Of a stretch of 64,000 bases of DNA, positions 27,462 to 32,674 are shown one piece after another. The notes under the pieces are model-generated. The model made no database searches. It worked only from the letters and a program-made list of their open reading frames with translations, and had not been told where the DNA came from. The DNA is from Syntrophomonas sp. (GTDB lineage: Bacteria; Bacillota; Syntrophomonadia; Syntrophomonadales; Syntrophomonadaceae). Positions within the stretch are counted from its first letter, which is position 1, and each line of letters begins with the position of its first letter. The position numbers and the translations under genes are program-made. Where the stretch lies: positions 124,001 to 188,000 of the forward strand of contig JAENZN010000001.1 in NCBI GenBank assembly GCA_016841245.1, given 5' to 3'.

Positions 27462-27676
27462 ATTAGTTTTCCCCCCCCGATTCAACAAGTCCATTTCCAA
27501 TATAACAGCGTATTTTCAGTATAGAACACCTGTGCACATATTTCAATTTGCCCGGAAAAGGCCTCTTCTCATTAATAAAGTCTATGCGGAGGAATGACAA
27601 TATGTAATAAAAATTTTTCATTAATTTGAATATTATCTTAGGTACTATGGCTGCACTGTTGTTATTAATAATCGGT

Positions 27677-27784
27677 TTAAAAAACCAGCAGGAAACCGAC
27701 TGACAGCAGATATCCCATGACTACCGTGCAGACCGCTCCCACAGCTGCTTCTATAAATTCTTTTCTGCTTATTCCTTCGAACAT
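27677..27784 (-). CDS. SOS-controlled 35-residue hydrophobic membrane peptide
   Basis: The peptide begins MFEGISRKEFIEAAVG and continues as a single hydrophobic helix ending SVGFLLVF. AGGAAGGTG lies about 6 nt upstream of the ATG. Its promoter, TTGACA-17-TAAAAT at 27835-27863, carries one LexA box in the spacer and another downstream, so the gene should be silent until DNA damage. Size and control recall TisB-like toxins or small division inhibitors such as the SOS peptide class including YneA/SosA, but there is no LysM domain and no sequence match I recognise. Function is inference. Confidence 0.65.
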   Translation of the reverse strand: MFEGISRKEFIEAAVGAVCTVVMGYLLSVGFLLVF

Positions 27785-27812
27785 TATCTACACCTTCCTC
27801 TAACTTATTTGG

Positions 27813-27863
27813 GAACATATGTTCTGTTAGGTATATTTTAGCCGCGAACACACGTTCTGTCAA
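27813..27863 (-). promoter_or_regulatory. SigA promoter with two LexA boxes
   Basis: Minus strand: -35 TTGACA (27858-27863), 17-nt spacer, -10 TAAAAT (27835-27840). The spacer holds GAACGTGTGTTC (27846-27857) and a second palindrome GAACATATGTTC lies at 27813-27824, just after the expected transcription start. Both match the Firmicute SOS core GAAC-N4-GTTC, and their centres are 33 bp apart, about three helical turns. Confidence 0.8.
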
Positions 27864-27973
27864 TCACCTAATCATATTTCCTAATGTACATACGATTAGA
27901 TATGAAGATTCACTTAAAGCAAGAATTGCCTTATAATATTCTAGAACCTGTATAAAGTAACGGAGGTTATGAA

Positions 27974-31872: not shown

Positions 31873-31941
31873 CCTGGAATTGCTCGGGTACATTTATCTA
31901 GCGGGGCAAATCCCCATAAAATATAATCTTTCTGATAGGTT

Positions 31942-31970
31942 TTGACCCCTGCGGTTTATTCTGTTATAAT
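31942..31970 (+). promoter_or_regulatory. Promoter of tRNA-Arg
   Basis: TTGACC (31942-31947), 17-nt spacer, TATAAT (31965-31970), 13 nt before the tRNA 5' end. A near-consensus SigA promoter. Confidence 0.8.
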
Positions 31971-31983
31971 AATCTAGCAATAT

Positions 31984-32058
31984 GCGCCTGTAGCTCAGTG
32001 GATAGAGCACCGGCCTCCGGAGCCGGGTGCGGAGGTTCGATTCCTCTCAGGCGTACCA
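31984..32058 (+). tRNA. tRNA-Arg (anticodon CCG)
   Basis: All cloverleaf arms can be drawn: acceptor GCGCCTG/CAGGCGT, D-arm GCTC/GAGC, anticodon stem CCGGC/GCCGG around loop CTCCGGA (anticodon CCG, codon CGG), T-arm with TTCGATT, and an encoded CCA end. A terminator follows at 32072. The 3' end is a likely integration site for the mobile element remnants downstream. Confidence 0.97.
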
Positions 32059-32071
32059 TTCGAACTCTAGG

Positions 32072-32103
32072 CACTTTCAGAGGTTTCTGAAAGTGTTTTT
32101 TTG
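32072..32103 (+). terminator. Terminator after tRNA-Arg
   Basis: A perfect 9-bp stem (32072-32080 with 32087-32095) followed by eight T. Confidence 0.92.
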
Positions 32104-32106
32104 TTC

Positions 32107-32130
32107 TTGACAGCAACGTTGACAGCAACG
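32107..32130. repeat. Tandem 12-bp direct repeat TTGACAGCAACG
   Basis: Two exact head-to-tail copies (32107-32118 and 32119-32130) lie between the tRNA terminator and the integrase-derived ORF end. They may be part of an integrase arm-type site or an attachment boundary. Confidence 0.6.
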
Positions 32131-32131
32131 G

Positions 32132-32674
32132 TTAATACATAGTCTCTACCGAGTCGGAATTTTCTGCTGGCATCACATTCCCAATCAGGCTGTTCAGCTT
32201 TAGGACACTAGCTACTTTGGCTCGATTAGTTATATGGCTATATGTGTTTAATGTGGTACTAATGTCAGCATGTCCTAATAACTCCTGGAGCTTTCTGCAT
32301 CGGGGTAGATTCCCTATATTTGGGGATTCTTGTGATTGTACATTTTCACCTAAGTTCATATCTACTTCAATAGGCTCTTCATATATTCCCCATATCCTTC
32401 CTGTATATTTACCTTTTGCATCACGAATCCAGGTTCGATTTAAATAACCACACTGTTCCAATTCCTTTAAACCAGACACAACACTGCTGCGCCCATCAGG
32501 TCCATGACTGCAAATTTCGGTCTGATAAAACTGCCACTCATCCGACTGATCTAATAAATACATTAACAATCCTTTTGCTTTCCAACTTAGCCGGGAATCG
32601 TTTATTATTGCTCTATCAATTTGTACAAATGGATTTGCTTTTTTGTGTTTCTTAAGTCTATTAAGTACTTCCAT
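32132..32674 (-). CDS. Chimeric ORF: replication-initiator-like HTH fused to tyrosine-recombinase C-terminus
   Basis: Residues 1-about 110 (FVQIDRAIINDSRLSWKAKG, then HGPDGRSSVVSGLKELEQCG) match the winged-helix N-terminus of phage/plasmid replication-initiator-like proteins. From about residue 128 the sequence becomes a tyrosine integrase tail: LQELLGHADISTTLNTYSH holds the conserved LGH and the nucleophile Tyr. The rest of the integrase (Arg and His of the active site) is missing. The fusion most likely arose by deletion inside an element integrated at tRNA-Arg. AGGGGGG before ATG 32674 means it could still be translated, but recombinase activity is impossible. Confidence 0.7.
   Translation of the reverse strand: MEVLNRLKKHKKANPFVQIDRAIINDSRLSWKAKGLLMYLLDQSDEWQFYQTEICSHGPDGRSSVVSGLKELEQCGYLNRTWIRDAKGKYTGRIWGIYEEPIEVDMNLGENVQSQESPNIGNLPRCRKLQELLGHADISTTLNTYSHITNRAKVASVLKLNSLIGNVMPAENSDSVETMY

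Follow-up and report, generated by a model that had tools for sequence, protein, structure and literature searches.

Small membrane proteins that are induced in the SOS response mostly block septation at a late stage (PMC13396833; PMC4211646). For instance, YneA binds FtsW through TM7 (PMC13396833), the 29-residue SidA interacts with FtsW (PMC4211646), and the same target is predicted for SosA and ChiZ (PMC13396833; PMC4211646). On its own, the helix of Bacillus subtilis YneA is able to bind FtsW, yet division is not stopped unless the LysM domain is present (PMC13396833). Among the SOS-controlled toxins, dinQ has a promoter that overlaps two LexA operators (PMC3567139).

Here, we describe a conserved and apparently uncatalogued micropeptide gene of 35 codons in a 64-kb stretch of Syntrophomonas DNA, in the following referred to as the window, where it lies behind a promoter with two LexA boxes. 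To our knowledge, it is largely open how bacteria without SulA or YneA restrain division after DNA damage, and this micropeptide offers a testable candidate for such a restraint in a whole bacterial family, whose members are anaerobes that degrade fatty acids. Judging from its sequence context, it is probably a small switch that DNA damage activates, most likely so that cell division is put on hold.

Gene, promoter and operator layout

An earlier, sequence-only reading of this DNA had placed an ORF for a single-helix peptide behind a TTGACA–17 nt–TAAAAT promoter, with one perfect GAAC-N4-GTTC box in the spacer and another past the start point. Every coordinate was reproduced on the minus strand (Table 1), as were both boxes and the 33 bp between them. 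The spacer starts with box 1, and the promoter scan finds 11 of 12 consensus bases.

Table 1. Features of the micropeptide locus, in positions of the window
Feature	Position	Strand	Basis and remarks
-35 element TTGACA	27858..27863	minus	Promoter scan; TTGACA, TTTACA or TTGACG adjoins box 1 in nearly all homologues
LexA box 1 GAACGTGTGTTC	27846..27857	minus	Within the -35/-10 spacer; GAAC-N4-GTTY kept in 39/41 homologues
-10 element TAAAAT	27835..27840	minus	Promoter scan; 17-nt spacer
LexA box 2 GAACATATGTTC	27813..27824	minus	Directly after the predicted start point; GAAC-N4-GTTC in 39/41 homologues
Ribosome-binding site GAGGAAGGTG	27791..27800	minus	Purine-rich site ahead of the ATG in most homologues
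35-codon gene MFEGISRKEFIEAAVGAVCTVVMGYLLSVGFLLVF	27677..27784	minus	ATG at 27784, stop ends at 27677; head 1-12 with basic pair, predicted uncharged transmembrane helix 13-35

Exactly two GAAC-N4-GTTC sites occur in the window, both at this promoter, where 0.53 are expected; at least two per 64 kb were also reached by 7 of 100 shuffles. The number of boxes alone is thus unremarkable, but their spacing and their overlap with the promoter are remarkable, and a chance arrangement is excluded because the homologues repeat the whole layout. In the entire 3.9-Mb genome, GAACNNNNGTTY-N(11-27)-GAACNNNNGTTC occurs only here, so that the genome has no double perfect LexA operator other than that of the micropeptide gene, while TTGACNGAACNNNNGTTY occurs twice, at this promoter and upstream of a Y-family-polymerase-like gene. 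The other GAAC-N4-GTTC sites of the genome are mostly intragenic or part of a dispersed repeat. As a separate observation, GAAC[TC][TA]ATGTTC is found outside the window at six places in G000 (C37:36114, 41904, 306644, 307119 and 307666; C17:51617), all with near-identical flanks (CCCC[AG]CGAAC..ATGTTCT[AG]TTATA). Three of these places fall in one stretch of about 1 kb, and the motif belongs to a dispersed repeat that looks like LexA boxes.

The gene is a stand-alone unit between a DUF4870 membrane protein gene and a divergent S-adenosylhomocysteine hydrolase gene. A 72-residue frame with a TTG start (27645-27863), which overlaps the promoter, was rejected, as selection tracks the 35-codon frame instead. 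Elsewhere in the window, the minus-strand ORF 32132-32674 appears to be a fusion of a replication-type helix-turn-helix domain with the C-terminal tail of a tyrosine recombinase; next to it is a stretch that translates as RLRGIEPPHPAPEAGALSTELQ and resembles a tRNA read as protein, and the region 31894-32674 is a likely mobile-element scar.

Conservation and LexA control

We counted as homologues all matches to the peptide profile at an E-value of 1e-3 or better; many of the genomes searched are MAGs. Homologues are present in 41 of 54 Syntrophomonadaceae genomes and in none of the nine other genomes of the order; the nearest match, G003, has the same peptide. Among the carriers with a species name are Thermosyntropha lipolytica, Syntrophomonas zehnderi and S. 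palmitatica. Across 398 genomes of the phylum, convincing matches were again confined to this family. Nearly all of the 13 weak matches outside it lie within larger ORFs, and the single 33-residue frame among them (L214), which has no LexA box, was rejected. Independently of the peptide, a pattern scan found the double box in 42 of 63 genomes, with none among the nine from outside the family and no hit for a reversed control pattern in any of the 63.

The promoter is inherited along with the peptide. In 39 of the 41 homologues, TTGACA or a near variant adjoins box 1 and box 2 is perfect; both boxes are degenerate in G034, with about one mismatch each, and G009 is the sole homologue with neither. 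Box 2 lies 14–46 nt from the ATG in nearly all cases, and although the leader varies in length, the ribosome-binding site and the ATG are kept. Likewise, an alignment of the genus shows diverged downstream DNA and a variable leader, but retained boxes, -10 element and frame. In G002 (L047, L192), about 200 additional nucleotides separate box 2 from the ATG, and a clear ribosome-binding site is lacking there; this copy may be poorly expressed and possibly decaying. Furthermore, the gene is missing from four of 28 well-assembled family genomes (G025, G071, G026 and G014); since each of these is at least 90% complete, it seems to be dispensable and can be lost. Its neighbourhood changes between genera, with lipA/lipB in G007, genes for D-Ala-D-Ala ligase and of menaquinone type in G021 and potassium-uptake genes in G027 and G073 (names inferred from ORF translations), and with a convergent, Pfam-confirmed lexA in G019; in none of the neighbourhoods does it adjoin division genes. 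Promoter and peptide together form the inherited unit.

The reading frame itself bears the marks of purifying selection in sequence comparisons. The closest pair of genomes differs by four synonymous and no non-synonymous changes, and other pairs within the genus show a pS of 0.39-0.64 against a pN of 0.07-0.15, with most changes at third codon positions. M1, an acidic residue at position 9 (E/D) and Y25 are invariant in all 41 homologues, and F2 is present in 40. Relatives thus retain promoter, frame and residues alike, and the claim withstands the check that the sequence-only reading had set for it, namely loss of the frame in relatives that keep the DNA. The proposal of a new SOS effector in anaerobic spore-formers therefore holds, on sequence grounds, for a LexA-controlled membrane micropeptide without a known match; its host group is better given as the Syntrophomonadaceae.

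The boxes can be tied to LexA through the lexA genes of these organisms. Of 20 relatives, 18 have a GAAC-N4-GTTT site ahead of lexA, at a distance of 67-114 bp, compared with 0.9% in shuffled sequence; lexA of the window's genome is preceded by GAACATGTGTTT, and lexA-type matches were found in all genera of the family. By this association, the GAAC-N4-GTTY-type box is the LexA operator in Syntrophomonadaceae. With two promoter-overlapping boxes of the type that also precedes the organism's own lexA, the micropeptide gene is itself nearly certain to be SOS-regulated. Wherever the double box is intact, box 2 has the GTTC half, whereas the half found ahead of lexA is the weaker GTTT, which suggests that the micropeptide is more tightly repressed and later induced than lexA. 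In genus g12 (L183, L184, L185), the double box precedes a divergent gene with a Y-family polymerase C-terminal domain (IMS_C), whose homologue in the window's genome (L162), at 34% identity, is preceded by one box only, arranged as TTGACC-box-TTATAC; this Y-family-polymerase-like gene, too, appears to be under LexA control in the family.

In other Bacillota, the same double-box promoter stands ahead of dinB-, recA-, lexA- and YneA-like genes. Their identities were read mostly from translations; for the YneA-like genes, one is backed by a LysM domain and another by a weak NF010723 match. YneA-like genes of this kind, encoding a transmembrane helix and a LysM domain, were seen in Veillonellaceae and relatives (L075, L078, L084, L112) and in Alicyclobacillus and a Bacillota MAG (L107, L119, L120, L128). 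In rumen and gut Clostridia (L106, L118, L126, L139, L146, L148, L150), the promoter precedes zinc-ribbon-like CxxC...CxxC proteins of about 50-90 residues, possibly a second unstudied family of small SOS proteins, and in nine Sporolactobacillus genomes (L080, L102, L104, L108, L123, L130, L133, L137, L142) a conserved protein of about 90-108 residues (WTKELNLVSWN...).

The peptide and its possible function

Hydropathy and charge pattern of the 41 homologues predict a single N-terminal transmembrane helix. The first 12 or so residues form a head, which has a basic pair (K/R) at positions 7-8 and the acidic residue 9; one hydrophobic stretch follows, in which positions 13-34 are free of charged residues in every homologue. 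The positive-inside rule is used to predict membrane topology, and by it the N-terminus should be cytoplasmic. Small residues recur at position 17 (A/S/T/G; 40 of 41), 13 (35), 16 (35), 24 (32) and 30 (Gly; 31). Apart from these positions and Y25, the helix drifts freely, and an invariant tyrosine beside a run of small residues in such a helix is more suggestive of contact with a partner helix than of a pore.

The sequence-only reading knew no match for this peptide, and we found none either: Pfam, NCBIfam and PHROGs returned no meaningful family, no recurrent PHROG and no YneA match, a PDB profile search gave no hit, and no report of the peptide was found in the open-access literature. Matches to DUF3098 in four of 39 members (best 5e-4) were attributed to shared hydrophobic composition.

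We consider a LexA-controlled, single-helix inhibitor of the late divisome, directed at FtsW, to be the best explanation, with a probability of slightly above one half (about 0.52). LexA operator, promoter, selected frame, uncharged helix and family-wide conservation are evident from the sequence; the inferred steps are control of the gene in the living cell by repression and induction, insertion of the peptide into the membrane, its target and the arrest of division. In the undamaged cell, LexA dimers would bind at box 1 across the -35/-10 spacer and at box 2 over the start region, and would thereby keep the promoter tightly shut. Upon damage, RecA-driven cleavage of LexA would free the near-consensus promoter, and the short mRNA would be translated directly. 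The 35-residue product would insert as one helix, N-terminus in, and dock with its small-residue face beside the invariant tyrosine on a helix of the late divisome, most likely of the septal peptidoglycan polymerase FtsW, so that septation would be delayed until repair is complete. In bacteria in which no YneA is detectable, the peptide would thus do the work of YneA, SosA and SidA with a transmembrane helix only.

We prefer this explanation because late arrest of septation is what most known small membrane proteins of the SOS response bring about, because the YneA model NF010723 gave no match above its curated cut-off in any genome searched in the class, and because the same promoter drives YneA-like genes elsewhere in Bacillota. 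The sub-cut-off matches that we inspected are longer LysM proteins without LexA boxes, and proteins of a sister family with a transmembrane helix, LysM and a 3D-type domain were likewise rejected as YneA, having no LexA box. Several points speak against a division inhibitor: the need of YneA for its LysM domain, the lack of profile similarity to YneA, the loss of the gene from some genomes and the absence of adjoining division genes. Given that YneA needs LysM, a peptide without it would have to work like SidA, by its helix alone. The wider proposal, a family-wide SOS checkpoint in Clostridia in which one bare helix silences the SEDS polymerase FtsW without the extracellular LysM or the extended region on which YneA and SosA depend, as the smallest septation inhibitor of Gram-positives and a natural minimal FtsW binder, is tentative, and we would rather bet against it than for it.

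The small-residue face and the invariant tyrosine would suit docking on any membrane protein, and the peptide could instead be a LexA-induced regulator of a protease, sensor kinase, transporter or energy-conserving complex. The gene neighbourhoods point to no target, and the peptide is confined to one family with an unusual energy metabolism. We nevertheless regard this as unlikely, though the strongest of the alternatives, as late-divisome inhibition is the usual pattern for such proteins (PMC13396833; PMC4211646) and nothing here indicates another target.

The likeness to TisB-type persistence toxins or SOS division inhibitors, which had been suggested from the sequence, holds better for its second half. 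Size, hydrophobicity and a double LexA operator like that of dinQ would fit a toxin that depolarizes the membrane and slows growth while LexA and an antisense RNA hold it down. However, the short distance from box 2 to the ATG (14-46 nt in nearly all homologues) leaves no room for a standby-site leader, and the mRNA, with a fold z-score of -1.45, lacks the long structured leader of type I toxins. Rfam gave no family match, and the promoter scan found only two plus-strand promoter-like sites near the gene, a divergent one at 27909-27937 and a weak 9/12 match at 27809-27837. Moreover, the helix is uncharged in all homologues, and its invariant tyrosine points to a specific protein partner. Short leader, uncharged helix and tyrosine together disfavour the TisB type, which we judge rather improbable, whereas division inhibition would fit better.

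Prophage genes are often under LexA control, and the family genome G025 has a phage region with four perfect boxes. A holin-like or similar gene of a prophage or mobile element caught in the chromosome is nonetheless very improbable, since tblastn against 50,697 phage and 72,556 plasmid records gave no match, no PHROG recurs, and the gene, present in 41 family genomes, sits beside housekeeping genes. The phage region of G025 (L182; C1:1510027-1510130), a complete genome without the peptide, has its four GAAC-N4-GTTC boxes within about 100 bp beside a phage portal gene (PF05133) and is likely a prophage LexA-type control region. That the ORF arose by chance and the LexA site ahead of it controls a non-coding SOS RNA, as the shortness of the ORF and its lack of a family match in the libraries searched might suggest, has next to no probability, because pN lies far below pS in all close pairs, substitutions concentrate at third positions, and ribosome-binding site and ATG persist despite the variable leader.

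If the late-divisome inhibitor directed at FtsW is the correct explanation, the peptide would be a natural inhibitor of septal wall synthesis that consists of a single helix. SOS micropeptides are easily overlooked because of their small size, and scanning for promoters rather than proteins can reveal them.

Comparison with known SOS peptides

DinQ and TisB of Escherichia coli are, like the micropeptide, tiny, hydrophobic, LexA-controlled single-helix peptides, and the dinQ promoter is also under two LexA operators; they have antisense RNAs and regulated leaders, whereas the micropeptide gene has a short leader and no obvious antisense gene. SosA of Staphylococcus aureus resembles it as an SOS-controlled membrane protein without LysM, but its extended region is critical for toxicity (PMC13396833), while the micropeptide has at most about six residues after the helix. 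YneA of B. subtilis shares LexA control and a single N-terminal helix, and YneA-like genes of Megasphaera, Negativicoccus and Alicyclobacillus have the same double-operator promoter. By contrast, YneA has a LysM domain, whereas the micropeptide comprises 35 residues in total, has no Pfam match and no LysM among 39 homologues, and shows neither an NF010723 match nor profile similarity to YneA-like proteins. SidA of Caulobacter crescentus, which is directed at FtsW, comes from another phylum than the micropeptide, whose own effect on division is presumed. In general description, the two agree: SidA is SOS-induced and 29 residues long, and the micropeptide is, as far as its sequence tells, likewise an SOS-controlled membrane peptide of about 30 residues, very short and with no extra domain.
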